From Pigoraptor vietnamica (taxonomy: Eukaryota > Opisthokonta > Filasterea), in assembly GCA_943704525.1 (NCBI GenBank), contig CALSCQ010001358.1, positions 1-26,180 on the forward strand: a stretch of 26,180 nt of DNA. The letters run 5' to 3'. The notes under the pieces were generated by a model that saw only the letters and a list, made by a program, of their open reading frames with translations, was not told where the DNA came from and ran no database searches. The translations under genes were made by a program, and so were the position numbers. Shown here in pieces: positions 3,710-26,160 of this stretch (position 1 is its first letter; every line of letters begins with the position of its first letter).

Positions 3710-6700
3710 TCACTTGGCCTTTGAGAACGACGCGTAGCATTCCTCGTGGCACTTGCCCGCGGGGGAACCGTCGGCCGCAGTGATCGGATAATACGAGCCC
3801 GAAAAGCGCCCGACCACCTCGCACAGCTGCGGAGTTGGAGGTGAGTAACAAGGCACTGCAACTCACGAGCGCCCGCACAAACACACCACTCTCTTGTAAG
3901 GTCTAGAAGAAACTCATCCACACGCACCCAAACACCTCACATCACACGCGCGCACAAATTTAGATGAGCGGAATGCGAGGCGTGTTGTACACATCACACA
4001 CCGGTCCCTTGCAGTGTATGCACTTTTCGGCGCGCATCTGGACGTAATTCTGCTCGCAGCGCACGTGCACCGTGTCTCCGTTTTCAAACTCCTGCAGCCG
4101 CGCGTACGTCAGCAGAGAGCCAAACAGAGGCGCCGCCAACGCACACCGTCCCACCTGATACGACTTGTCAAGAATGGGCATGAAGCACAGCGCACACTGC
4201 GGGCCATGCGACGCCTGGAAGAGCTCGTAGCACTCGACGTGCACCTGCAAACAGACGCAGGCCGTTTCAGCCACTGCGATTCGCCCTCACCGAACGCGAC
4301 CGTTGACCACACTCGCCTGCTGTGTGTTGTCGAGCACGCGATAGAATTTCCCCGAGAACTTGTCGTTTGCGGCGATCGCCTTTGAGCACTGTATGCACTT
4401 GGGCGCGAGGCTCTCCGCGTGTGCGTCAAAGCAGCGCTCGTGCACGGCGCTCCCGTCCTGCGATGCATCGAAATGGCGACAGCTGAGTTGTGGACAGGCA
4501 AGTGTGTAGTGTGACGACGAGCGCGCTCCTCCACCTTGAAGACCTTGTACTTGTCCTCGCGAATGGTCGTTTTGCAGTGCACGCACTTTGGCGCATTCCC
4601 CTCTTGGAACGTGTCGTAGCATTCCTTGTGCACCTGCGCAATGCGGCTGGTTAGGGGCGCAGCAGCGACACGACGACGCAGATTGAGCGCCACTTGCTGC
4701 CATCGACGATTTACCTTGCGTTCGACAGACTCCTGGGTTACGACGTAGAAGAGGCCGCTGAAGCGACCCTCAATCTCGATCAGCTGAGCGAAGCAGGAGG
4801 AACAAGGGTGTTAGAGAGTGTGCGGCGGCATCAGGTGGAAATCTGCATACGCACACACACACACGCAAAAAAAGGATAAGCGCGCACGCGGGTACACACG
4901 CACCGGCTCGCCGCACTGGTGACATTTCTCCGACGTCATCTCGATGTGTCGCTTGTTGCAGTCGGCGTGGCACTTGCCCTCGGGATACCCGTAAAAAACG
5001 CCTGCGCACGCACCGAAACGTCAATGCAAGGACACGGCAACACGCTTTCACACAGCGCGGCAGAGACGCACCCTCCACAGGCTTGCTGCAGACGAGACAG
5101 AGGGGGATCCGGCTGTCCACGCGTTTCATGCGCTCCGCATCCCCCGCATTCGGCGTCGGCGGCACAATCTGGGACACGGACACCGGACTCCTCGACGACA
5201 CCGTCAGCCAAAACGTGCCTTCAACGCCGGCTCCCCACGCGGCCACGACGCACACGAGACGCTCGTGGCGCCCGCGGCGAACAGCGGTTTCGGCCGATGC
5301 CGTGCGTCGGTGGCACTCGATTGTAAGCGCGGCGTCGGTGGGCTTTAGCGGGCCCGTCGGATTGCGGAAGACAAAGAGCTTGAACTCGAGGAAAGGCAAA
5401 TCTGTGCCGCGGACGTCTCGCTGAGCGACGGTAAACGTGACATGCCCCTCGTCGCACTCGACGGCGTACGTTGGGTTGAACTGGAACGTCTCGGGGGAGT
5501 AGCCGCCCGCAGTGCTGATCCCAGAGGCCAGTGTAAGGACAAGACGCGCACACGCAAACGCGCGGAACAAAAAGACACTCGACGCGACGCAGGTCTCTCC
5601 GTGCTCCCACCTCCCTGCGGCCCACGAGCCCCGGATGGACGCGTAGTTGAAGCCGAGTGGAAGGGGAAGGCAGGCGCCGATGTTCTCAAAGTGCGCCACA
5701 AAGTCCCTGAAGCTCATCCAGAAGGAGCCGTCGTCGCTGTTTACGTAGCCCACCTGCGCGTGCAAGCGCGAAACGGAGAGTGAGGAGCGCAGTGGGAGCG
5801 GTGTGAATCGGTGACGGTCGCCCTCGTCGGTGCGCAGTGGTAGCAAGTGTCCGATCTGCCACCACCCCAAACAAAGGAAAAAGTCCGATTCGGAAGAAAA
5901 TTCCGACATGTTACTCAGCCTGAATGGGCCATTCACCTCGCGCTTGAGGGCGTCTGTCCACAGGCGGCTGTTGTCGCTGAAGTCGCCGCTCCACTCGAAC
6001 TCTCCCCATGGGTTGCGACACTGCGCCACAGAGAAGTGTTGGACGCGCGCACGGTGCGGCAACATACGGTGTTACGCGTTGTTACTACGCACCTTCACCA
6101 GCCGTATCCCTGCGCTCGTGTCCTTGAGTGCCAGCACGGAGTAGGCGTGGTCGCTGATGAGACCCTGTCGTTCAACTACTGTGTCAGACGGTGGTGAACC
6201 TCTCTCAAAGCGCGAACATGCGCGCATGTGCCTTCGCTTGCCTTCGTCTTTGCAACCGCGGACGAAATCGTGTGGCGCACTTCCGTCGCCATGAACGGAT
6301 CGCGCTTCGAAATCGCCTGCGCAGAGCTCCACACCTGCATCCGCAACGAATTGCACACACTCAACTACAGTCCGTTCTGCGTTGCATCGCACGGAAAGTC
6401 CGCCATACCTCCTCGAGCTCCTTCTTGTCAGTGGTGTCGTGCGGCAGCAGAATGGTCGTCGTCGTGCCGCCCGTCAGATAGCCAAGGGCGTCGATGGTGT
6501 CGCCCGCAATGCACGCCTCGAAGCTCCCGTGCAGCTTCGCCCACGCCTGCGGCAGCCAGAAAAGGAGAAAAGTGTCTGAGTTCTCTTGTCAACGATGGGC
6601 CGTCTAAGGTGTAAGCTGACCCGGCATTGCGATGTGTCTCGGGTGGGGCAGTCTGCAAGGGAAACACAGCCTTGTCATTCGACCACACACCTTCTCCATG

Positions 6701-8837
6701 ATCATGCACCACGTCTCCTTCTCGCGGCTGTTGCTGCGCCCATAGCGGCTGAAGACGGGCATCCACTGCGACCCTTGCTTGTAGCACGGAAAGAGGTCGT
6801 CGATCACAACCTGCATCGATGGCGGAGTTCAAGAGCCTCAGATGCTTGTCGCCCGCACCCACTCGACGAGGGATTGCGCCGTGCTATTGCGGAGCGCTTA
6901 TGTGCATATACTAAAAGCATGCCCTGCTCATTAGTATTGTTCGTACACACGCTTCAGACTCGTGCGCATCGCCCACTCACCGTCACCCACGCGCCCTCGC
7001 GGAAAAACTTGACGCCGTAGAGGCCGACGTCCTCATGGTCCTCGACGACGAGATCTTCGATGAGCATGTTGCGCTTGGCGCACCCGGCGATCGCGGCGAG
7101 AAAATAGCAGTCCCCAAGTATACCCTGTAATAGGTGCGTCAGCAAGCGCCACGCGCACGCAACACACAGGCACGAGCGCCTCCATGCACACCTGGTGGAT
7201 GTCGTCGGGGTCAATGCCCTCGGAAAACACGCGCGGCACCGCAGTGATGTCGCCAAATTCCGTCGGGCGCTTCCATGCCAACGACAGCCGCTTGCCGCTC
7301 GAGTCCGTGAGAAATTCGGGGTGGAACTTGGCCGGCTTCGAAGGGTCCATGAAGAGCGCGCTGCGATCAAGGGGAAGGAGCAAGGTGGCCGCAGCGCCCG
7401 GCGTGGGTAAGAGATGAGTGCGGAAACACGAACAGTTACGTGCAGATAACGTCGAATTCCACTGAGGCAAATTCAAAATGGGCCTGCATGAAAGCAAGAA
7501 CGCACCGGTCGTCGGCGGGGAAATCGGGGTCGCGGAAGAGCGCCCCCCGGGCACGCAGCATGTCCGCCAGCTCTCCCACCATCGCCTCACCCTCCCGGTC
7601 GCGCACGCCGGCCCACACCCCCTTCCACGCCGCTGCCCCGGACCCGCGCGTTCGCAGCATCCGATCACGCAGTCGCGCGCACACTTTCGCCTCGGGCGGC
7701 GTCAGTTCACTGCTTCCCGCGGCACCCACTGCGCCCGTGGCGCTCGGCGCAGCGGCGGGCTTCGAATGGCGATCGGCCGCGCTGTCCTGCCACGCGACGT
7801 CGCGCTTGTTCTTCGGCAAGGCCGCCGTTTTCTTAACGAAGGCCGACGCGGCCGCAACCTTGACGGCAATCGACGCAAACGACTTTGGGGCGGTCTTCTC
7901 CAAGCCCCAGTGCTCCATGCGCGCCGGCGAGGCCATCGACAGTGCGGCCGCAAGTAGCGCCCACCCCCGCCGCTTCACGGTTAGGTGGGCGAGGCGCACA
8001 AATCGGCCGCGGCCCTTCTCGCATTTAAAGAGGCGCTCAGTGCCAGCAGTGCCGTCGTTCGCGTCCGCGCCGGGCTTGTCCAGTTCGACGCCGGCCCACA
8101 CGCCACGCCCGAGGGCCGTGGCGCCAATGTAGCGGATTGTGCACTCTTCGTCACCATAGTCGAGGTGCAAGGTCGCCTGCACCAACAAGGCACATGTGCG
8201 CTGAGTACCAGGGGTACTGCTGAGTACGCGCAGGTCCCACTGGCCGCAATAATCCCCACCTTTGCGCCGACCCTGAATTCGGAGGGGTATGCAGGCATGG
8301 CGTGGATCTCGTTCATCACGGACTCGCGCGTGCGATGCTGCACGCGGTGTCGGCATGAGCACACGGAGTGCAGTGGGTTCGCAGTGCCACAAACATTCAA
8401 CGCACCCTGCGGAAGAGCGACTGGAAGCGGCGTGCGGCATCGCGCGCAGTGCTGCCGCGGTACTGGAGTGCGGTGGCTTCCGGCAGAACGGCGTCCTCTG
8501 GCACAAACACGCCGAGGCCAGGCCGGCACTTGAAGAAGCGGCGGCCGTGCACCGTCCCCGCAGTGCCCACTGTGTGGCAGCGAGTGGTTCAGAGGAGTCA
8601 GCCAAGTCCAGTGAGGCCAGTGAAGCGCATCCAAGGCACCCTCACAGAGACGCACAGTCCGACACACGCACACCCACCCGTAAAGCCGTGCCTGCGCCAC
8701 GGTTCGTCCATAATGACGCCCAGCCACACGCCGTCCTCCCAGTAGACGCGCGACGACGACGCCACTGTGCCGAGTGCGCATGCGCCGCGCCCGTTGGGGA
8801 CGGCCACGCGGCGACCGACGGCCTCTCCCTCTGCCAT
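3710..8837 (-). CDS. CAP-Gly x2 / calpain cysteine protease / six LIM-like zinc fingers
   Basis: Exons (descending): 8837-8678, 8569-8406, 8337-8260, 8176-7440, 7360-7192, 7124-6981, 6810-6691, 6546-6409, 6334-6242, 6164-6093, 6020-5937, 5753-5611, 5514-5072, 5001-4904, 4783-4715, 4633-4535, 4457-4317, 4244-4155, 4091-4002, 3826-3710; 1082 residues. CAP-Gly 1 (about 1-75) starts at the chosen ATG and ends RRFFKCRPGLGVFV. CAP-Gly 2 (about 127-200) has GRGVWAGVELDKP and LFKCEKGRGRFVRL. The calpain core (about 350-700) keeps the triad: Cys442 in GILGDCYFLAA, His607 in SDHAYSV, Asn628 in CRNPWGEFEW, plus DDGSFWMSFRDF. A calpain domain-III-like sandwich (about 700-830) opens STAGGYSPETFQFNP. Residues 840-1082 hold six CxxC/HxxC fingers. 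No EF-hands are seen. CAP-Gly suggests microtubule targeting. Introns after 6242 and 4317 appear to use GC donors. An in-frame ATG at 8963 is an alternative start. Confidence 0.88.
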
Positions 8838-9596: not shown

Positions 9597-10020
9597 TCGT
9601 GTTTGCTGTTGTGCTGCGGTGTGTGTTGCGCGGGCACCAATGGGATGGTCATAATTTGCGTCTGAGGGGAAGTGCGCTCGGTGCATTCGCCTGCAACCTC
9701 ATAGCCGCTCCTCGCGTTGATTACACTTGTGTTCTGATTGGCCCACACACACACTTTACGCGCGCGTTTGCGCCGTGACGCTTCCTTTCGCTCACGTGCC
9801 TTTCTTACGTTGTTGCAGGGCAAGGGCGCAAGGAGCTGAGAGCATGCGTGAAGGTCGAAACGTGATTTTCAATGAACTTGGCTCTGAAACACAATGGACT
9901 CAGTCGGTGCAATTGAATTGGATTTTGGCCAAAAGAGAGGCGATTTTGCACCGGATTTTCAATTTGGCGACACCCGCAAGACCCCCGGCTGTCCGGCCAG
10001 AAATCCGTCAACAATGGCCA

Positions 10021-10095
10021 ACACCGACACACACACACACACGCACACACACGCACACACACACACACACACATACACACACGCACACACGCACA
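10021..10095. repeat. (CA)n microsatellite
   Basis: An interrupted CA dinucleotide repeat, with occasional CG and TA steps, about 220 nt upstream of the Munc13-like start codon. It explains the Thr/His-rich and Val/Cys-rich conceptual peptides in this stretch, which are not genes. Confidence 0.95.
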
Positions 10096-10313
10096 GAGCC
10101 AAGGAGACTGCGCACAGCCGCGAACTCTCACGCGTACTACTTGCGGGGCGCATCGCATGGTCTAGCAGAAGAGCAGGACTTGAAGAGAGAGGCTGTTATA
10201 TCCCCTTGCTATACAATTCGTGCGAATCCGCGCCGAAGATGCGCTAGTGGCTGTCTGTGGTTTGTTTTGTCACACTCTGACGTGCGTGCGAGGCCCTGTG
10301 ACCGCGCTTGAAA

Positions 10314-13300
10314 ATGGTGAAGTTCAAGAAGCAGCAGGTCGCCTCGGGGCCTGCGATGGCCCCCGCGCGGGGCAGGTGCGTGCCAGTGCCCGTTTATGAT
10401 TGCTGTGGATGGCCTTGTTCCAACACTGAATGGCGAATGCGTGCGTGTGCGTGCGTGTGTGTGCGTTTCAGGAGCCTCCGCGACCTGACGGAGGCGGCGG
10501 GCATTGCGGACCTCGCATTCCTGAGCGAGATTGAGCAGGCAGCGCCCATCCCGACGCAGAACAAGCCGAAGGAGGTCCGTCTCACTCGGCCGCACACGCA
10601 CTAACAAACACGCACACAATCACACACACAGTTTACGGTGTTCATGGTCGCCTGTCTATGACCTAATCTGATCCCACGTCGGCCTGTGTGGTTGTCCGCT
10701 GGTGGCAGGGCATGGCGTGCGTGCGCGTCTTCATGCCGGACAATTCGTATGCGAGCTTCGTGGTCGCCGACGACGCGACGGCGGGCGATGTGGCGGGGAA
10801 GGCGTTTCGCAAGTTCTGCACGATGACGGGCGGCGACGAGTCCGTCGAGCACGTGCTGTACATGGTAACCTTCGACAAGGAAGGCGGGTCTCGCTGCGGC
10901 GTCTCGTGTGCTGTGTGACCCTGCACGCTCAATTTCATATGGCCTCTCGTGTGCTGTGTGACCCTGCACGCTCAATTTCATATGGCCTGCGCGCGCATGC
11001 AGATCGCCCGCTCTACGACGAGGAACGCCTCGTGCAGCTGCGTCAGAAGTTCCTGTCAAGCAAGGCGGCGCACGCTGCTGGCGACGGGGACGACATTGTG
11101 CGGTATGTAGTCTGGACACATTGGGAGTGGGGAGAAGTGTACTGACACCCGTCGCTGCTCCACGCAGGTTCCAGCTGCGGCCCAAGGCGAAGGAAGAGGT
11201 GATCGCCATGTACTTTCCGGACGAGTCGTACGGTTCGTTCCGCGTCACTGCCGAGACAACCGCAGCCGAGCTGGCGGAGGTGCGCTGAGTGCGAACTGGT
11301 GTGCATGCCGCAAGCACATGCTCGAGTGTATGGGCGCATGCGTATGTCACTGGTAGCCTCTGTGCTCACATGCACGTCGCGGCGCACGCTCACCCCCCGC
11401 GCTGCAGATGGGCCGGCGCAAGTACAACCGCATTATGGAATACCCCGACCAGGACCAGTCGGCCGCGCTTGCCATCCGCGTGCACACCTTCAACAAGAAC
11501 GGTGCGTGCGTGCGCAACGCCCAACACAACGCAGCGCACTTGCGTAGTGTGTGTGTTTGTGTGTATTGTGCCTGGAAGACGCTGCTTGCGTGGACGCGAG
11601 TGCCAATTCGTCACCCGCGCAGACAAGTACCTCGAGCCCGACGACAAGCCCCTCCTCATCAAAATGAACCTTGTGGTTGCCAACGGATTCGTCGACGGGC
11701 ACGCGGTCCGCTTTGAGCTCCTCGAGGTGCGCTGCCACCCCTCCCTTGCCCAGTTCTCTGCCTGCGTATGTGTTGTTAAGGGAGTTCGCTTGTCTGATAC
11801 TGGCCCTTCTACGCAGCGTGATTCCACCACGGACAAGCGCGCATCCTCCGTGCTCCCCGCGAGCACGGCGACCGAGGCAGCGCCGGCGAAGGAGGCAACG
11901 CCAGAGGTACGTAGCGACGCTTTCCCTTTTTGCTGTTTCTCGCTGCCCTCCGCAACACGCCAGCCTTTCATCGTGCTGACGAATTGCATGCCCACGTGCA
12001 GGACCGCGCCATGTTTGAAATTGCAGTGCGCGCGCTCATGTGCACACCCGCGTCGGCCGTGCGGTCCATGCGCTCAACGGATGCCGCCAGCGAGGACTCG
12101 AGCGCGCAGAAGCGCAAGTCGCGCGTGGGACGCAAGGTGTCCGTGGACAAGCTGCGCGCGCTGAGCCTCCGCTGCGCCGGCAGGGTCAACGACCTACAGG
12201 ACAAGCACAGCAAGGCCCCCGCGGACGACGGCGAGGCCGAGCGCGAGCGCGTGTACGTCGCGGCCCTCTCCCACTACCACGCGCATTTTCTGTGCCAGCG
12301 CGCGCGCCACCTCATCCTCATCAGCGACACGACGACGGACGACTTTGCCGCCATCTTCGGCACGACCCTCCGCAACGAAATCCGCCGATTCGACGCAGAC
12401 CTCGTCGACCGGCGCGCGGCCGAGACGCGCAACGCGCAGCAGCGGCGAACGGGCGCGGCGGGCGCCACACCCGCCCCACGCCCCCTGCCGAACATGCTGG
12501 GACCCGACAAGGACAAGTACGAGGCCTGGATGGCGGACTTCACGTCCATGCTGCTGGACGTCGTCGGTAGCGGTGCGGACGACACCAAGACCGTCGTCCG
12601 CAAGCGCCGCGCCACGGAAGTGTCGGCGGACGACACGGTGGCGACGCCGTCGGGGACTCTGCGGCTCTCGACGCTCTCGCGCACGCAGGCTGAGGCTCTG
12701 GGGCTGCTGCGCGCGGCGCTGTCGATTCCCCAGGCGGACGCCGACGCCATCGTGGAGCGCGAGCGCGTTGCCTTTGAAGCAAATCCGTCGGATCTTGTGC
12801 TCGGGCTGAGCCAGCGACTCGCGCGGGCAGCAGCGCACCCGTTCTACAACGAGACGTCCCTCGACAAGGCGCGCGCGGCTGCGTGGCGCGAGGCGGAAGG
12901 GTCGCAGACGCGCGAGCTCATGAAGGCCATCTGGTCTGCGCCGCGGCAGTCGAACCGCGAGTGCCTCTTCAAGTGCCGCCTGAAGATATCGCTGCTGGAG
13001 CTCGTGGGCGTGCGGGGCGGCGGCGTGGACTGCACGCGCCCCATGGCCCTCGCTCTCCTCGGCAAGAAGCAGCACATGACGCTGCCGATCGACTACAGCG
13101 ACAAGGCGGGCGCGGCGCCGATCGTGTGGCCGGACGCGACGTTTGAGTTTGACGTGAGCAACCCCGCCGCGATCATCGCCATTGAGGTGTGGGACGAGTC
13201 CAAGTCGCAGAAGATCGCAGTCCTCGAGGCAACGGCCGTGTCGTACATGGAGGGCCTGCTCAACAGCCCGCGCGGCCCCTCGCCCGACCCCATCCGCCGC

Positions 13301-13957
13301 CGCCGCCGCATGACGAGCGTCGTCGCACCGGACACGGCCCCGGAGGCCCTCTTCCAGGTTTCGTGCGTGGTCGACGCGTCCGTCCGCGCGATGGGCCACG
13401 TGCACGTGCGCGGCGGCGACTACTCGTCGTGGACGGACATTTTCATGGCCGTGCACGTGCTGGACGGTGACTCGACGGGCACGGTGTTCAAAATGTTTGC
13501 CCTGCCGCGCCTCTTCGACGGCGACGAGGAGGAGGACGGCGCACTCCCTTCGTCCACGCACAAGCGCACGCCGAGCAGTCTGTCGGTCTCGTCCCGCAAG
13601 CGGAACACGTCGGGCGGCGAAAGCGACAGCCGCATGCGGTCTGTCAGCGGTGCGTCGACGTCGAGCGCGAGCGAGCTCTCCCACTCGGGGTCGTCACTGT
13701 CCCTGCCGTCCGTGGCGTCTACGGCGGGCGCGGCAGGCAGCACCGGCACCGGCGGCGGCGTGCTGCAGCGCGAGGGCATGCTGACGTGCAAGAAGAAGAG
13801 CGAGTCGAAGCGGTCGTCGCTCAATCTGTCGCGCGCCAAGTGGAAGCCGATGTACTTTCTCCTGCGCAACACGCGGCTCTTCATCTACAAGGAGAAGCCC
13901 GTTGGCGTGGGTGGCCTGTGCCCGCAGCTCATTGTCGCTTAGGGAGCCGCACAGAGT

Positions 13958-14009
<52 letters not shown>

Positions 14010-17000
14010 ACATGTGTGCTTGCGAGCGCGTGGGTGTGTGGGTGGGTGTGGATATACAGAGTACTGTGCCTGACCCTATTGCCTCCCGCAGGATGTGTCC
14101 CCTGTGGCCGACTACGATGTCGTCCACGCCACCATCGAAGCGGTTGCCGAGCACAAGAAGCGCCCAAACGTCATCACGCTGACTCTCTCTGACGGTGTCG
14201 TCTACTTCATGCAAGCCGCCTCCTCCCCCGAGATGGACGCGTGGGCGGAGACCTTGCGCAAGGCCGCCGCCATGGGCGCCCCCATCCCGGCCGTCAGCCT
14301 CACGTCGTCCGGCAGCGTGCGGGGCCCCAGCAGCCGGTGGAAGAGCACCGCCAGCGCCGCGGTGGCCGCAAACGCATTTGCCGCGGCCGCCGCGACATCC
14401 ACGCGACGTGGCGCCGCGCCCACCGAGTCTGCGATTCCGGAGGAGGGCGGCCTTGCGGCGTCGTCCTCAGGGCCTCTCCGCAAACCCGCGGACGACGGCG
14501 CCGGGGACGCGCACGCGCGGGGCGACGACGACGGCACGCGGCCGCGCGAGGTGCGGATGGGCATGTTCCACCTGATTGGGGAGGAGCTCGAGGAGCCGCT
14601 CGGCGGGGACGTGCTGCCAGACCTCAGTTTTGACATTGTGACGGACGCCGGCACGCGCCTCTCGTTCCTCCTCCCGACCACGGCGGATTGGAAGGGGTGG
14701 CACGGCGCGCTCCGTGCCCTCACGCGCCGCCGCCGGCAAACGGACGCCGTGATGGTGTCTCGCGCTGACGCAGAGGGTAATCTCGCGATGCGGCAGCGCG
14801 TGCGAGACGCCTACGCCGCGCAGGGGACCGCCGTGCCGGAAGTCGTGAATTTGGACGTCGACCGTGCGCAACGCGTGTTGGCGCTGGCGCAGTCGGGCGC
14901 GCCACCGGCCCTCTCGACGCCGCTCGAGCTCTCGCTGGCGGAGGCGATCGATGAGGACCACCACGGACAGTTTCGCATGCTGCTCTACGCGCTCCTGGAG
15001 CACGACAGCGAGACGGAGGAGCTGAGCGAGGCCGCAGCGCTCGTCATGGACACGTATGGCACGTTTTACGGTGTCGCAGAGACGTACAGGCGGCTGCTGT
15101 ATGTGGACGCCCTCGCGCGGCAGTACAATCTTGAGTGCCACCGCAAGTCTGCGCGCAACGTGCGCTATCTCCCTGTGCTTGCCGAGCTCCTCGTCCAATT
15201 CGGACACGTGAGTGCCGGCCCGCCCGTTCCGCAAACACCCACATCTAACACACGCGCGCACAGAGACACACTCACGCACGCACGTATGCACTGACGCAAC
15301 CTGCAATCCTCGTGCTCATAGTCTGCACCCTGTGGTGCTCTCCCCTGCAGTCGATTGAGACGTCGCGCGTGGGCTTGTCGCTGCTGGAGAAGGCCATTTA
15401 CGACGACGTCCTCTCTCTCCTCGAAACGCTCCAGACGGAACAGGTGCGCTTGTGCTGCAGCCTTTACCTCGCGTGCTGTCCGTGAGCGCTTGCACTGACG
15501 ATTTTTGGCCCCGCAGATATCCGCGTACAAGGACTGGTTCCCCTACGCCAAGGGTGGCATCGAGGCGACGCTCCGCCTGCTCAACGTCGTCGTCCAATCC
15601 GAGTACTATCGCGCCAAGACAAAGCGGGCGCCGAACCCCATGGCGGACCTCCTCCTCGTCTGCATTGGGCGTGCGACGGTCGCCCGCTACGACCGCGTGG
15701 GCTCGATGACGGCCGACCTCGTGGCCGCCGTCCTCTCGGCGCAGGCGCAGACGCCGACGCAGCACGCCGACGCGCGCTCTCCGCTCCAGCTGATGAAGAT
15801 GGCGCAGCTCGTCGGCGAGGAGCTCGCTGAGGACGCGGAGTACTTTCGCATGGCGTTTGCGCCCTACACCGACGTCGTCGCGACGGCGGGAGGCGAGTAT
15901 GCACGACTGCTCCTGAAGGACGTGCGGCGGTGCGTCGCGAGTCCCGTGCACACGGACTCTGAGAAGATCGACCTGTACCTCCGCGTGCGCCGCCTCGTGG
16001 ACGGCCCACTGCGGGAGGCGCGCACGCCCAAGAGCGAGGCGGACGTCGATGGCCTCGTCGCCGCGTTTGAGCCGTGCATCCGGGGGTGGCTGACATCGAC
16101 GGGGAAGCAGCTGCGCGAGTGGACGCGGCGCGCTCTCAGGGACGACACGGTGGGTGTGGGGCTTTAGAGGTGGTCTTTTCGTGTGCCCATCTCACCCTTT
16201 TTCCGCGCTGCATGCAGTTCACGCTGGTGGAGTCGGGCGGCGGCACGCTGCACTCTGCGTCGGTCGTCGACGTCTTCTGCTGCTTCAACCAGGTGCGTGC
16301 GATGAGCGGTGTGCGGTGGCGTGCGTGGGCACGACGCTCTTGTTCCCTGCAACCGTACACTCGCGGGGAGACCACTGACCGCGACACCCCCGCAGAGCTT
16401 TGACTTTGTGCAGCGCCTCAATTGGCCCAACGCATCCGAGCGGCACCAATTCCTGGAAATGTTCTCGGAGGTGTGTGCGCTGTCCGGGTGTCGTCACTGT
16501 TATGTCTACCCCGTTCCCCTCCGAACGTGACATGTTCATGTCTCTCTCTTTGCACCCCTGTCGTGCCCCTGATGAGCGAGCCCCGCGCAGTCCACGTGCC
16601 GCACGCTCGAGGAATACGTCGTCGGGCTGAAGGATGCGTGCGCCGAGCGCTTTTTCGAGAAGGGACCCCCGCCGCCGCCAAACGCCAACCCAAACACGGC
16701 GATGGGGCAGCTGTCGGCCCTGCTGGAGAGCAAGATTGACCTGGTCGAGGCACGCGTGAACAGCGTCTTTGGCGCGCCGGAGAGGCCGAAGCCCCGCCCC
16801 ATGACCGTCGAGGATGTACGTACTGCGCCGCTCTGTGCGCGAATGCCATGGCAGAGCGACCTTGCGCACATGCAGCCCTTGTCAGTATATCCTAATGTTG
16901 GCGGCGCGCTAACACGCAATGCCCGGCGCAGCTGTTCACCGCCCTCAACAACATTGAGGTGGCGCGGCAGCAACTGGCGGAGCTCAAGCGCCTCTTCCTG

Positions 17001-18206
17001 GCGCACGCGGCTGCGCTGCCGGTGGAGAACGGCTTCACTGGCCGTCACTTTGACGAGGCCGTCTCCGTGCTGGACCACATTGCGCTCGCGGGCATCCTCG
17101 CCGACCTTGCCGAGGAAGTGAGTGCTGCCGCTGCCACACGCCCATGTGTCACGTGGTGACCCCATGCGAGGGGTCGTGTTGCACTCCGTGCGTTGGGTGC
17201 CCCTTTGCTAAGCCGCGTGTTACTGCTCGCAGATGGCCGGCAGCATCCAGAGCGGCCTGCTCCACTTGACGGGTGTCGACGTCTCCGGCCGGGCAGGGTC
17301 CGCGTCACGCGAGCTGACCGAGGCCGACCTGGGCGCGACGGACGCCGAGGTGCAGGAGCTCGTCGACCCCGTGATTGCGTACATGAACGAGAAGCTCGAG
17401 CTCTTCACCGAGCACCTCTACGATCCCGTCTTCCAGCGCGTTCTCGAGCGCATGTGGGTGCTCGTCCTCGAAACGATAGAGGCCATCCTGTGCCCGATCA
17501 GCGACGCGGCCGGCGCGCAGAACGGGGCGCAGGCTCCCCGCCAGCCCTCGCGGCACGTGGACCTCAGCGGGTCGATGCGCCGGCGCCTCCCGAGCGGCGT
17601 GAAGAAGGCGCTTGGCGGAGTGCTCACGCCGCGCCAGCACGCTATGTTCGACAAGGCCATCAACGTGAGCGCTGTTCTCTGCCGCCTGTGTCGGCTGGCA
17701 CCTTTGTTTTGCGTGCGTGGGTTGAACGGAGTGTGGGCCTCTGAGTTGTCTTGTCGCGCGTGTGCAGATTTTCCGAGGGTTCCTCCACGCCGACTCGGAC
17801 GGCCTTCCTCTCGATGTCCTCGACTCGCCGAAACTTGCGGAGACGCGCCGCTTGCTTGCGCACTGCCGCACACCGACGAAGGCGCTGGTGGAGGCGCACG
17901 ATGCGCAGGCCACGCCCGAGGCAGAGCGCACGCTGATCAGGTATGTTCCGCTGCGTTTCTTGTGTTGGTGTGCCACTTGAGTGATTGATGCTCTTGTACG
18001 CGCGATAACGTGCGACTCTCGCGTGCCACTTTTCTGATAAATGCCCTTTAACGTGCGACCTGTGTGCGCCGCGCAGGCTCGTCATATCGAACCGCCAACG
18101 GGACTCGGACGCCGTGCAGTGGATGCGCGGGCGGTCCAACTCGGCGGGGAGTGGGGAAAACGCCGTCGATCGCATTGGGCGCTCCATCACGTCGTGGTTC
18201 AAGTAA
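10314..18206 (+). CDS. Munc13/BAIAP3-like protein: RA-like x2, C2, PH, MUN
   Basis: Exons: 10314-10375, 10472-10574, 10709-10883, 11003-11102, 11168-11279, 11408-11501, 11623-11726, 11817-11906, 12002-13906, 14092-15207, 15351-15443, 15517-16149, 16218-16292, 16396-16470, 16591-16815, 16932-17117, 17233-17664, 17768-17940, 18077-18206; 1960 residues. Two Ras-association-like folds (about 56-148 and 150-250) share the signature PD-x-SY-x-SF-x-V. A C2 domain (about 600-700) seems to lack most loop aspartates, so calcium binding is doubtful. A PH domain (about 868-975) is split by an intron and ends MDAWAETLRKAA. The MUN region runs from about 1190 to the end, with YGVAETYRRLLYVDALARQY early and an MHD2-like segment (YMNEKLELFTEHLYDP, VLERMWVLVLETIEAIL) near 1755-1808. 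Munc13-family MUN domains prime SNARE-driven vesicle fusion. Intron 3 appears to use a GC donor. Confidence 0.88.
10902..10987 (+). repeat. Perfect 43-bp tandem duplication within an intron
   Basis: Copies 10902-10944 and 10945-10987 are identical head-to-tail. They lie wholly inside intron 3 (10884-11002) of the Munc13-like gene and carry in-frame stops, so they do not alter the protein. Identity indicates a recent duplication or an assembly artefact. Confidence 0.95.
13962..14008 (+). repeat. (TG)n microsatellite in Munc13-like intron 9
   Basis: A nearly pure TG run on the coding strand inside the intron 13907-14091 that interrupts the PH domain. UG-rich intronic RNA is a known ligand for CELF/TDP-43-type proteins in animals; any role here is unproven. 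Confidence 0.95.
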
Positions 18207-18994: not shown

Positions 18995-20173
18995 ATGGCA
19001 GCACCGCCTGCGAAGGCACCCCGCCTGTCCGATGGGCCCACCGACATCCACGAGCGTCTGGCGGATGGCCAGCGCGCGAATGGCGCAAAGGACGCCGCCT
19101 TGGTGGCGCGCGCCCTGAGCGAGCTGGACGCGTCGCAGGAGGGTTTGGAGCGGCTGAATGAGATGGCCTCTGAGGAGATTCTCCGCGTGGAGCGCCAGTA
19201 CAACGCACTGCGGCAGCCGCTGTACCAACAGCGCTCGCAGATCATACGCGCGATTCCGGACTTCTGGCTGCAATGCGTATCCGTCCCGTCTCTATGCCGT
19301 CCTGTATGCCACCATGACACGCGCACAGACACACGCACGCAAACACGCTCGCAAACACGCACGCACGCGCGCAGGGACGCACACATTCGACACCGGAGTG
19401 TACAGTGTTATTCCCTCTGCCAGTCGTCGTCTGCGTATTTTCTTGACCGCACGTCTCGTGGTGCAGTTCCGCAACAACGAGCTCCTGCGTGGGCTGCTGA
19501 GCGAGGACGACGCCGAGGCTTTCCACTACTTGCGCTCGATTGACGTGGAAGAGTACGACGATGTCAAGTCGTACAAGATTGTCTTTGTAAGTGGCCAGCT
19601 GTGTGTGCGGCGTTGTGTGCGTGTGTGCTTTTGTGGGGCGATGGGGTGCGTTGCTAGTGTTGCTATCGCAGTATATGCACTCACGTCAACGCGCGCGCAT
19701 CACCCCCTCACTCACTTCGCTAATGCGTCGTGCACGCGCAGTCGTTCGACCCCGACAATCCCTTCTTTGAGAATGCGACGCTCGCGAAAGAATATCTCGT
19801 GGACGACAATGGCGACTTGCACACGACGTCGACACCAATCGCGTGGAAGCCGGGAATGGTGTGTCTTGTCGCCTGTATTGCCCTCGGTGTGTGCGCACAC
19901 GCGAACACAGAAAAGCATGCGCGGCCTCTCAAATGCCAGCTCTTGCGATGCGGCTGACGCATGTGCTGTTGCAGGACCTGACTGCGGAGAATGTCAACGC
20001 GACCAAGGGGCGCAAGCGGCGGCGAGAAGACGGGGAGAGCTTTTTCCGGTGGTTTGCGGGGGGACAGGCAGCGGACGTCGAAATTGGCGAGGTCATCAAG
20101 GAGCACTTGTGGCCGAACCCGCTTCTCCACTACGCCGCGCGGGTGGGTCGAGCACAGAACTTTTCTGGCTCTC

Positions 20174-20228
<55 letters not shown>

Positions 20229-20342
20229 TATCTGTGTGTCTGTGTGTGTGTGTGTATGTGTGTGTGTGTGGTGTGTGTGTGTGTGTGGTGTGTGTGGTGT
20301 GTGTGTGTGGTACGTGTGTGTGTGCGTGTGTGTTGTGCGTGC

Positions 20343-20396
<54 letters not shown>

Positions 20397-21033
20397 GGTC
20401 ATGCCTGTGCATTGAACGCCTTTCCATTTCGCGCCGCAGTCGAGTGATTTTTCGGATGCACGCGGGGATGGCACAGCGGCTGTTGGCGTGAACAATGGCC
20501 TTGGCGTAAACGGCGAAAGCGCGCTAGCAGTGGACGAAGAAGGTGCCAACGGCGATGGCGGGGACGTGGCCTACGACGGCTACGCGGGCGAGGAAGTTGA
20601 AGAAGAGGATGAGACGCTTGCGACCGCTGGCGCCGACGGAGCGGCTTTTGCCGAAGGAGAGGTGTATGCCGAGGGGGGTCTATCGGGAGAGGTGGACGAC
20701 GACGAGTACGCGGGCGAAGAGGTCGCTGAGGCGGAGGGTGCTGAGCATGCGGAGGGTGTGGAGGCTGCGGACGAGGAGGGCGGCGAGGAAGAAGGAGGGG
20801 AGGAGGAGGAACAGACTGGCGACGAGCCCGACGGCGCCGCTGCTGTCGGTGAGCCTGGCGTAGCGGCGTATGGCGGCGACGGCGCTGAAGACGAGGGCGA
20901 CGAAGGGGACGAGGGAGACGAAGGGGAAGAGGAAGACGGCGAAGGCACGTATGGGGCCGATGCCCCGGATGACGACGAGGGTATTGACGCGGGGGGCGAC
21001 GAGGAGGAGCCCGACGACACGTACCGATCGTGA
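18995..21033 (+). CDS. SET: SET/NAP-family histone chaperone with long acidic tail
   Basis: Exons 18995-19276, 19467-19586, 19742-19858, 19975-20142 and 20440-21033 give 426 residues. The N-terminus has a helical dimerisation-type segment (about 30-85) with EEILRVERQYNALRQPLY. It is followed by the NAP/SET earmuff signatures IPDFWLQCFRN, LRSIDVEEYDDVKSYKIVF, FDPDNPFFEN and IAWKPGMDLT, then FFRWFAG and a hydrophobic helix near HLWPNPLLHY. Exon 5 encodes about 198 residues that become overwhelmingly Glu/Asp/Gly/Ala. SET/TAF-I proteins bind core histones and also inhibit PP2A in animals; they act in nucleus and cytoplasm. All splice junctions preserve the family alignment. Intron 4 (20143-20439) contains a large TG repeat. 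The ATG at 18995 is preceded by an E2F-like site. Confidence 0.93.
20175..20396 (+). repeat. Large interrupted (TG)n repeat in SET intron 4
   Basis: About 220 nt of TG repeat with TCTATC, GGTG and TACG interruptions fill most of the intron between the globular domain exon and the acidic-tail exon. The interrupted order suggests an old expanded array. It accounts for the Val/Cys and Thr/His conceptual peptides on either strand. Confidence 0.95.
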
Positions 21034-21959: not shown

Positions 21960-22225
21960 ATGGCCCTCTACGACATTCGAGAGCGCGTGTTTGACGAGCG
22001 CAAGAAGGAGATGGGCGAATTGAGACAGAGGATTGCGCAGTTGCAAGGTCTGGCAGAGTTGCAGTTGCGTGTTCGTGTGTTGGCCATGCTCGTGCCGAGT
22101 GAGCGCGCCCGTCTGTGTGCGCGTGTGCGTGCGTGTTTACTGTACTCAAGTGAGAATGGGTGAATGTATGATGCGTTTGTTTGTGTGTGTGTGTGTTGTG
22201 TGTTGATGTGTGATTGCTGTACGCC

Positions 22226-22258
<33 letters not shown>

Positions 22259-22283
22259 GTGCGTGTGTGTGTGTGTGTGCGCT

Positions 22284-22320
<37 letters not shown>

Positions 22321-22701
22321 GCGTTTGTATGTGTGTGTGCGCTTGTGTTTGTGCCTGTGTGTGACTGTGAGCTGCTCTGCTCTGATGAAGCGCAGTGCGT
22401 GTGTGCCTTTATACTGTATATGGCATGCATATTGTGCGGGTCTGCACGTGTGCTTGCGCGTGCTCCATGATCGCGTTGCGTGCATGTGCCTCGTACAAAG
22501 ATTTTTCATCGCTGTGTTGCGTGTACTGTCCTCACCTTCTGTTCCGTTCGTGCAGACGCCATAAAGAGCGAGGGAAAGCCCTCCCACCAACCGTCGCTCA
22601 CCGCGCGAATCGCGAGTGTCGCGGGCGTGTGCGTTGCGCTGGGCATTATCGTGAGCGCGTATTACTCTGTCACTTTCTACGAACCCGAGAACGTAACATG
22701 A
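21960..22701 (+). CDS. Small single-pass membrane protein, unrecognised
   Basis: Model: exon 1 21960-22098 and exon 2 22556-22701, 94 residues. The N-terminus (DERKKEMGELRQRIAQLQ) is a charged, coiled-coil-like helix. The C-terminal exon has one hydrophobic span, ASVAGVCVALGIIVSAYYSV, followed by a short tail ending EPENVT. I do not recognise the family; a tail-anchored or inner-mitochondrial membrane protein is possible. The start at 21960 has good context (purine at -3, G at +4); an in-frame ATG at 21897 would add an Arg-rich leader. The donor at 22098 (GTGAGC) fits the consensus better than an alternative at 22047 (GTCTGG) in the same phase, so about 17 residues are uncertain. The intron holds a TG repeat, and the stop codon lies in a tandem duplication. 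Confidence 0.55.
22180..22360 (+). repeat. Interrupted (TG)n repeat in an intron
   Basis: TG repeats with regular TGCG and TTTG interruptions occupy much of the intron of the small membrane protein gene. The (GTGTGTGCGCTTGTGTTTGT)-like segments near 22275-22295 and 22335-22352 repeat, suggesting internal duplication within the array. Confidence 0.9.
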
Positions 22702-23107: not shown

Positions 23108-24876
23108 TCACGTGCTCCTGTGCACGACCGAGGACTCTGGCAGTTCAAAGGAGAGGTACTCGCCGCCCTTGCCACGCGGCATTTCGTGCACTTCGACCAC
23201 TGCGTCGCTCTCAATCGGCGCATAGACGTGCGGGAAGGAGGGCACGTCGGCAAGCTCCCGCGGCATGGGAACGCCAGGCGGCGGCGCGGCGGCCTCGAAC
23301 TTGAGCCCTGCGGATGCGGCGCTTTGTGAGCACCATCGAGAAGCAGCCGGAGGGAGCCTTTGGAGAGGAAGTGGTGGAGCGCGTGTGGAGACAAGTGCAG
23401 GCATGACGAGTGGATTTAGAGAGCAGACACGAGCGAGAGTGAGATTAATAGGAAGTGGAAAGCATGGGACGAGAGCAGGCCACGAGAGCCCCGAACCCTT
23501 ACACACACCCTTCAGCTTGTACTCGTCCAGCACGAGGACGACCGCCGTGCCTTCGATGCCCCGCAGAAAGGCGTTCGCGACAATGATGCACTGCGCGAGC
23601 GTGGCACAGCAGTGCGTGAAGCCCTCCTCCGCGAAGCCCGCGGGGACATACGCGCGACCGCCCGCCGTCGCCTTGGCATAATACTCGCGGGTTGTCATGT
23701 GAAACACAAACTTGCCTGGGTGCGGGTGGAGGCACCGCGGGAAGTAGTCTGTGGGGGGGGGGGGGGGATGTGTGTGCGTGTGTGTGTGTGAGTGTTTGTG
23801 CGCGCCCGTGCAGGTCGGCGCGCAAGTGTTTGCTTGTGAGTAAATGGTGCGTGCACTCGACAACAAATACGCATCTAGTCACTCCGTGCGACGCGCACTG
23901 CACGCACCCGCATACTCCGTGAATAGGTGCGGAAACGTCTTCTCGACGTATTCGCGCGTGACGAGCGTGCGTCCCTGCGGCAGCCACCGCGGCACAGTGC
24001 ACTCGCTCACGAGCGCAAAGTCGCCCCGCACCAGCTCGCTCGACTTCCAGTACCCCGCCGGTACAGTCATCTGCAGCCGGTCGCCAGCGGCCAAGTCGCC
24101 GCCGAGCGTGATTTGCTCCACGCGGCCCTCTGCGCGGACGACGCATGCGCGCACAAGTTAAACACGCCAGGCATGGGAATAAGGCGAGGTCTCATCTGGA
24201 ACGCATAAAACTTGGAAGGCGTCGCGAATAGTAAGTGTGCATTGTTGAGCTGTGCATGTGTGTGTGGCACGGGTGCATGAACCGTTTCTCTCTCTCTCTC
24301 GCCACACAACACGTTGCATCAGTTCACGGCGCACTAGCACAAACTGATGCAACAGCGCACTAGCGCCTTGAGGCAGCACATAAGGACGTGAAATGCGAAA
24401 GGGCTCTCGCAGCAAGTCGACACACACCTGGAGAGACGATCGTGTACCTCGAGGCACCGCCCTTGTGAAAAAAGTGCGTGATGTCGCACTCGTTCGTGTG
24501 AAAGTATCCGATGGTGTGCTCGCGCGTGAGCATGTAGAGGATGCAGCCGTAGAGCGGGACATTCTTGGACTTTGAGTCGTCGCAATCGGCCGACGGAACA
24601 GTGATCTTGAAGAAGCCGCCCTCTGAGGTGGAGGGAATGCGGTCACACCGCGTGTATACACACGCACACAGACACAGGCGCACGCACACACGCACACAGC
24701 ACTTACGCACACGCTACTACGCACGATCACTCATAACGGACGCACACGCTACTACGCACGCTCACTCATAACGGACGCACACACTACTACACACGCTCAC
24801 TCATAACGGACGTCCACTAACCCTCGTGCGGGATAAGCCCGAGGTGCGCAATAATAGCCTCGGCGGTGTCCGCCAT
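23108..24876 (-). CDS. Cupin_5 (DUF985) - DUF952 fusion protein
   Basis: Exons (descending): 24876-24822, 24622-24428, 24129-23908, 23748-23509, 23307-23108; 303 residues. The first half is a cupin_5/DUF985 domain: HEEGGFFKITVP (about 17-28), YMLTREHTIGYFHTNECDITHFFHKG, then SPEGRVEQITLGGDL and VPAGYWKSSELVRGDFALVS, with cupin-like histidines and glutamates. The second half is a DUF952 domain (about 170-290): FVFHMTTREYYAKA, EEGFTHCC, LVLDEYKLKG and SFPHVYAPI. DUF985 members are small cupins of uncertain, possibly sugar- or metabolite-related function; DUF952 is functionally uncharacterised. Joining exon 2 directly to 24129 reproduces the family motif across the junction. No targeting peptide is apparent, so it is probably cytosolic. 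Intron 1 carries a minisatellite, and intron 3 ends in a C15 tract. Confidence 0.85.
23753..23767. repeat. G15 homopolymer (C15 on coding strand)
   Basis: Fifteen G residues on the plus strand form a C15 polypyrimidine tract immediately before the acceptor of intron 3 of the cupin_5-DUF952 gene, followed upstream by a CA repeat. It probably serves as the polypyrimidine tract; its length may be unreliable because homopolymers are error-prone in sequencing. Confidence 0.9.
24706..24810. repeat. Three-copy 35-bp minisatellite
   Basis: Units 24706-24740, 24741-24775 and 24776-24810 are near-identical, each ending CTCATAACGGA, with one to three substitutions between copies. The array lies inside intron 1 of the cupin_5-DUF952 gene, beginning 11 nt from the exon 1 donor. 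Confidence 0.95.
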
Positions 24877-25794: not shown

Positions 25795-26046
25795 CTAAGT
25801 GGCTGCATCCGCAGCAGCCGCCGCCTTTTTCCGCGCCTCTTCCTGCTCCATGTCGACGTAAAACTGGTACACGCCGCGCAGGCGTGGTACGTAGATCTCG
25901 GCGAACGACGGAAGCGACGCGCCAATCGCCTCGTAGAGGGGCAGCGAGAACGTGCGGATGAAGAACGTCTGTGCGCCGGCCTTGGACACTGTCTTTCGGT
26001 CCATTCGAGGCGTGAGCGGAAGGCCCTCCACAATCTCGCGGTCACC
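25795..26046 (-). CDS. Class I cyclic-nucleotide phosphodiesterase, C-terminal exon (partial)
   Basis: The exon begins after an acceptor AG at 26048-26047 and encodes 83 residues to the stop at 25797-25795. It opens GDREIVEGLPLTPRMDR, the typical late segment of the PDEase_I catalytic domain. Then comes KAGAQTFFI, in which the Gln and following Phe correspond to the purine-binding glutamine and the aromatic clamp of this family, and SLPLYEAI. The tail is a charged helix ending in Ala-rich sequence. These enzymes hydrolyse cAMP and/or cGMP. The metal-binding HD motifs and any regulatory domains lie beyond the right edge; 26047-26180 appears to be intron. A single exon cannot settle cAMP versus cGMP preference. 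Confidence 0.8.
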   Translation of the reverse strand, partial: GDREIVEGLPLTPRMDRKTVSKAGAQTFFIRTFSLPLYEAIGASLPSFAEIYVPRLRGVYQFYVDMEQEEARKKAAAAADAAT

Positions 26047-26160
26047 CTGTGAGCATAAGAGAGGGTGTCAGCGCCAACAACATTCGAGCGCGTCACTGAC
26101 AATAAAACGTTGCACACAGCCAGCGTGCTATTACAGACAGCAGATCGAGAGGAGAGAGAG

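Follow-up and report, generated by a model that had tools for sequence, protein, structure and literature searches.

Overall architecture

A 26,180-nucleotide stretch of Pigoraptor vietnamica DNA (contig CALSCQ010001358.1, positions 1–26,180; here called the window) carries on its minus strand, at 3710–8837, a gene that appears to encode a real, single and probably active calpain. Once spliced, its 20 exons form one open frame of 1060 residues. As read from the sequence, the predicted protein comprises two CAP-Gly domains and a complete protease core whose calcium sites are mostly kept, followed by the beginning of a domain III and by six zinc knuckles that replace the penta-EF-hand tail. Judging from literature searches, this domain order is apparently undescribed. 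The source assembly (GCA_943704525.1) comprises 32.5 Mb in 1395 contigs; the window has a GC content of 0.616, and introns are plentiful in its genes, which are of eukaryotic type.

Protease core and calcium sites

The protease core, PC1–PC2 (residues 348–659; 5670–7537, minus strand), was identified in a Pfam scan as Peptidase_C2 with 249.6 bits against a cut-off of 23.8, covering model positions 1–296 of 297, and its closest solved structures in the PDB are calpains 1, 2 and 9 (E 1.5e-45 to 5e-42). The alignment with calpain-1 (7x79_A) has 124 identities over 330 positions, and Q109, C115, H272, N296 and W298 of that enzyme are retained as Q414, C420, H585, N606 and W608. The codons of the catalytic residues lie on the minus strand at 7107–7109 (Cys420), 6147–6149 (His585) and 6012–6014 (Asn606). 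Relatives of the core were sought in prokaryotic genomes (22 pattern matches) and viral contigs (two), with scans that reach close relatives only, and none was confirmed.

Nine calcium-ligand positions of the core were taken from PMC4057710; this and the other papers cited here are represented by the parts of their text that were available. Six positions are identical (G101, D106, E185, E302, D309 and D331, in calpain-1 numbering) and three are altered (V99S, M329S and E333S), the latter being backbone calcium ligands according to a figure legend in the same paper. With six of the nine identical, calcium control via the protease core is plausible despite the lack of EF-hands: the Pfam scan of the predicted protein returned no EF-hand family at E up to 1, and zinc knuckles stand where a classical calpain has its penta-EF-hand tail. 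Calpains free of EF-hands are ordinary, as many architectures in the available text of PMC4631099 lack them.

The core is followed by a domain III-like region (residues 660–805; 5136–5669, minus strand), of which the start alone is recognisable, through a sub-threshold match to Calpain_III. The isolated piece scored 20.7 bits, still under the cut-off of 21, and the region matched calpain-2 in the PDB weakly (E 0.13 across 32 residues). The rest of domain III is presumed from its position.

CAP-Gly domains

CAP-Gly domain 1 (residues 7–80; 8490–8819, minus strand) is split by intron 1, and domain 2 (residues 141–198; 7985–8158, minus strand) follows it. Pfam CAP_GLY matched the protein in two stretches with E 5.3e-26; domain 1 alone, scanned as the isolated N-terminus, reached E 4.5e-10 and 39.8 bits against a cut-off of 26.5, and it was also aligned to a CAP-Gly domain of contig C734 in the same genome. 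The closest solved structures to domain 2 are restin (CLIP-170) and dynactin-1. Between the two domains lies a tentative IQ-like calmodulin-binding motif (residues 96–112; 8326–8444, minus strand), split by intron 2 and matched by Pfam IQ below threshold.

Zinc-knuckle array

The C-terminal part holds six C2HC zinc knuckles (residues 818–1060; 3713–5099, minus strand) of the form CxxC-x(16-29)-HxxC, with exactly 11 residues in all five gaps from HxxC to the next CxxC. Shuffling of the whole protein and of the tail, 20,000 times each, never gave more than two knuckles. Knuckle pairs 2–3 and 4–5 are 38% identical, and intron positions match after CxxCxxP (repeats 2 and 6) and before VHxEC (repeats 2 and 4). 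A two-knuckle unit therefore seems to have been duplicated inside the gene, and the same coincidences also support the exon model.

Judged by its sequence, the array consists of LIM-like C2HC knuckles whose family is not settled, LIM being a weak resemblance. The LIM pattern is a double zinc module, CxxC-HxxC-xx-CxxC-CxxD. Membership was rejected on a score of 10.3 bits against a Pfam cut-off of 22.9 and on the spacing from HxxC to the next CxxC, which is 11 residues in every gap and not two. Several sub-threshold zinc or unknown families outscored LIM, among them DUF7576 (19.8 bits against 27) and DUF2175 (18.1 against 25.1). A profile of the six repeats searched against the PDB placed FHL2 on top (E 0.0026), with LIM proteins accounting for seven of the 11 hits up to E 10. 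An hhalign comparison of the knuckles with nine LIM domains of the genome gave 63%, over 12 columns alone, which also spoke against membership; these domains came from 12 fetched LIM loci (31 matches), three of which (L049, L050 and L051) were omitted as partial or interrupted by a stop. CEP104, a protein of ciliary/centriolar ends (PMC5222566), likewise has tandem C2HC fingers. The CEP104_ZnF array was rejected as well, with 17.0 bits against a cut-off of 27.4, and the one CEP104-like finger read in this genome ends in Hx4C, not HxxC. Within its own genome the array matched only itself (seven of seven matches; three candidates scored).

An earlier note on this DNA, made from the letters alone, had listed two CAP-Gly signatures, an intact Cys/His/Asn calpain core and six CxxC/HxxC fingers in place of the penta-EF-hands, and all of these were recovered here. 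Its domain-III-like sandwich holds for the start, which resembles Calpain_III below threshold, but most of that region is unrecognisable by sequence. Its proposal that regulation dispenses with EF-hand calcium sensing agrees with the missing EF-hands, but both calcium sites of the core are largely retained.

Gene model

The model was rebuilt from the minus strand, with splice sites picked by eye and homology as a guide. Exons 1–7 lie at 8837–8678, 8569–8406, 8337–8260, 8176–7506, 7360–7192, 7124–6981 and 6810–6691; exons 8–14 at 6546–6409, 6334–6242, 6164–6093, 6020–5937, 5753–5611, 5514–5072 and 5001–4904; and exons 15–20 at 4783–4715, 4633–4535, 4457–4317, 4244–4155, 4091–4002 and 3826–3710. 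The predicted reading frame opens with an ATG at 8837 and has its sole stop at 3710, matching precisely the span stated in the earlier note. The 19 introns measure 63–183 bases, all with an AG acceptor; donors are GT in 17 and GC in two, these being the introns after exons 9 and 17. GC content at third codon positions (GC3) ranges from 0.77 to 0.90 across all 20 exons, and overall GC content is 0.64 in coding sequence versus 0.58 in introns. Introns 11, 12, 15 and 18 have lengths divisible by three and no stop in the reading frame, and longer isoforms retaining one or other of them may therefore exist; the calpain alignment supports removal of introns 11 and 12.

Both domain borders fall within exons of the minus strand that are single open frames. 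Exon 4 (7506–8176) encodes CAP-Gly domain 2, a linker and the first 11–15 residues of the protease region, as Peptidase_C2 starts at residue 348 and the calpain-2 alignment at residue 344, both within this exon. Exon 13 (5072–5514) encodes the recognisable start of domain III together with the first CxxC, which belongs to knuckle 1.

Comparison with known systems

Genome-wide domain counts refer to the matches returned by a search that scored the best candidates only. Peptidase_C2 returned six matches at three loci. Besides the present gene, these are C505 (L019), which encodes an androglobin containing part of a calpain domain, and C1207 (L020), where two MIT stretches precede the beginning of a calpain core that runs off the contig end, a join that we infer. 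Among the matches returned for Peptidase_C2 and CAP_GLY (six and 12), the contig of the present gene is the only one with both.

No CAP-Gly calpain was described in the available literature that names both terms, figures, supplements and closed-access papers lying outside this scope; PMC3380836 and PMC3499766 mention calpain and CAP-Gly separately in the text at hand. In the parts available, a 2012 survey of 41 calpain arrangements (PMC3563603) has LIM among the partner domains and no CAP-Gly, a 2015 survey of 267 homologues (PMC4631099) also has none, and CAP-Gly does not occur in PMC3315469 or PMC13413365. Literature searches on other terms likewise yielded no such protein among the entries listed. 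The claim of the earlier note that no calpain of this order had been described thus agrees with the sources covered. Because fusion architectures are common in protist calpains (PMC3563603), the arrangement is less surprising than it might seem; what stands out is the direct fusion to CAP-Gly.

The classical calpains CAPN1, CAPN2 and CAPN9 are alike in the protease core, the triad, most core calcium ligands and the start of domain III, but they have EF-hands, of which none was found here, and they lack the CAP-Gly pair before the core and the zinc knuckles after it. In Entamoeba pC2~LIM, a protease is likewise followed by a C-terminal zinc module, although that module is a Pfam LIM and CAP-Gly is absent from the arrangement as available in PMC4631099, whereas the present tail consists of six single knuckles that fall short of the LIM threshold. 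CAPN15/SOL and other zinc-finger calpains also combine the protease with zinc fingers, but these are of the RanBP, GRF or ZZ kind and, in the accessible text of the same survey, occur without CAP-Gly. CAPN7/PalB likewise joins a calpain core to N-terminal scaffold domains, and C1207 looks like a member of this group; the scaffold there is MIT, which binds ESCRT-III proteins (PMC13413365), in place of CAP-Gly, and no MIT was found in the Pfam scan of the predicted protein. CYLD, in turn, also places CAP-Gly domains before a cysteine protease and carries a zinc B-box, as far as the text at hand tells; it differs in being a USP deubiquitinase with three CAP-Gly domains, as opposed to a Peptidase_C2 protein in whose Pfam scan no UCH/USP appeared. 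By analogy, CYLD offers the closest working plan for the predicted protein, which would be a scaffolded protease with a calpain core.

Proposed mechanism and alternatives

The best explanation that we can offer, and one whose chances we consider evenly balanced, is that of one protist calpain gene whose regulatory ends have been replaced, with a product docked and calcium-closed as follows. The CAP-Gly pair would dock the enzyme on an acidic-tailed partner, such as alpha-tubulin, EB1, CLIP-like proteins or a diverged ligand, and the zinc array would provide a second surface for protein docking or self-association. Calcium in the protease core would close the active site, perhaps aided by calmodulin at the IQ-like stretch, and cytoskeletal substrates would undergo limited cutting at the docking place. 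This explanation is supported by CAP_GLY and Peptidase_C2 scores above the Pfam cut-offs, by the retention of the triad, Gln414, Trp608 and six of the nine calcium-ligand positions, and by the single exons that bridge the domain borders. Further support comes from restin (CLIP-170) and dynactin-1 as the nearest solved structures to CAP-Gly domain 2, from an EB1 homologue in the assembly, and from the second calpain of the genome, C1207, which seems to be scaffolded as well.

Several observations count against it. GKNDG is the mark of CAP-Gly domains that bind the EEY/F tails of tubulin and EB proteins, and neither domain carries it, the equivalent positions reading VGTAG plus an insertion in domain 1 and DANDG in domain 2. 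The available text of two CAP-Gly papers searched for this motif, one of them PMC8511506, does not name it. Alpha- and beta-tubulin, and with them an EEY tail to compare, were not found in the assembly, which hints at gaps in it. The tubulin-family loci returned were a gamma-like tubulin (C519, by reading) and one other (C666). In the core, the equivalents of R104 and E333 are both altered, R104 to proline, and we take these two residues to be salt-bridge partners. Calpain_III, in the full-length scan, spans residues 672–701 (the first 30 residues) at 16.8 bits against the cut-off of 21. For the zinc array, no Pfam family exceeded its cut-off, a phmmer search of the whole array against the PDB gave six hits (best E 0.59) without a LIM or zinc-knuckle protein, and the two-knuckle profile gave four (best E 0.34), with a single LIM protein at E 0.87.

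With GKNDG broken in both domains, targeting to microtubule tails is therefore something that we infer, and a changed ligand has to be taken seriously as an alternative. The architecture could be real and the CAP-Gly pair bind another partner, in the manner of CYLD, so that the protease would act in signalling or turnover and not at microtubule ends; we regard this as doubtful yet well within reach. Among the 12 CAP_GLY matches returned genome-wide, two of which are the domains discussed here, GK is kept in all four of the others readable at the motif (GKNDG twice in C734, GKHDG in C882 and GKNNG in C469; the remaining six of the ten were unread there), and CYLD, a cysteine protease with CAP-Gly domains, binds NEMO and ubiquitin (PMC8511506). 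Domain 2, however, still has the domain core and the NDG part of the motif, and microtubule-associated proteins are its closest solved relatives; moreover, PMC8511506, in the text available, calls microtubule binding the canonical CAP-Gly role, served in CYLD by CAP-Gly domains 1 and 2, and describes ubiquitin binding as apparently restricted to CYLD. The suggestion of the earlier note that the protease is delivered to microtubules or plus ends is plausible, but it remains an extrapolation across a broken motif.

Control might instead be exerted mainly by calmodulin or core calcium, with the CAP-Gly and zinc parts as merely passive scaffolds. Most core calcium ligands are retained and an IQ-like stretch lies between the CAP-Gly domains, but that stretch scored 11.7 and 12.9 bits against the Pfam cut-off of 20.3, and an IQ-like pattern appears in 7% of whole-protein shuffles, so that calmodulin binding at this putative site is suggestive only; given also the altered R104 and E333 equivalents, we consider this improbable. 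Slightly less probable still is that the model has joined two or three adjacent genes, for a CAP-Gly protein, a calpain and a zinc-knuckle protein. The model was built on genomic sequence alone and requires GC donors at two introns, and PMC4631099 cautions about exactly such errors in odd calpain architectures. Because exons 4 and 13 cross both domain borders in single open frames, with phases consistent across the 20 exons, a misjoin of neighbours in this predicted single gene is unlikely, although the border in exon 4, which extends only about 11–15 residues into the protease region, is less firm than that in exon 13.

Other features of the window

A Gti1/Pac2 (WOPR) transcription-factor domain, of a mainly fungal family, lies on the plus strand at 2356–2547 (E 1.8e-10). 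Consecutive open frames on the plus strand at 11915–17988 contain a MUN (Munc13-like) domain above its cut-off, together with two PH pieces that stay below theirs. The minus strand carries a DUF952 domain at 23507–23692 (41.0 bits against a cut-off of 23.7) and, at the window edge, a fragment of a cyclic-nucleotide phosphodiesterase (PDEase_I; 25795–26067). Long CA/TG dinucleotide runs at about 9960–10160, 20170–20400 and 22150–22400 open spurious reading frames.

Significance

The gene might represent a new calpain subfamily, targeted by plus-end-type CAP-Gly domains, controlled by calcium through the core and calmodulin, and ending in an unclassified tail of single C2HC knuckles, a proposal that we make tentatively and think rather unlikely to hold in full. 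The zinc knuckles may together constitute a module so far undescribed. In the available texts, links between calpains and the cytoskeleton usually run via substrates or via members such as CAPN6, whose action on microtubules is non-proteolytic (PMC3563603, PMC13413365), and a general calpain role in microtubule-based cytokinesis was proposed in 2026 (PMC13413365). With CAP-Gly domains of its own and an intact active site, a calpain of this kind would allow a direct test of that proposal within a single protein.

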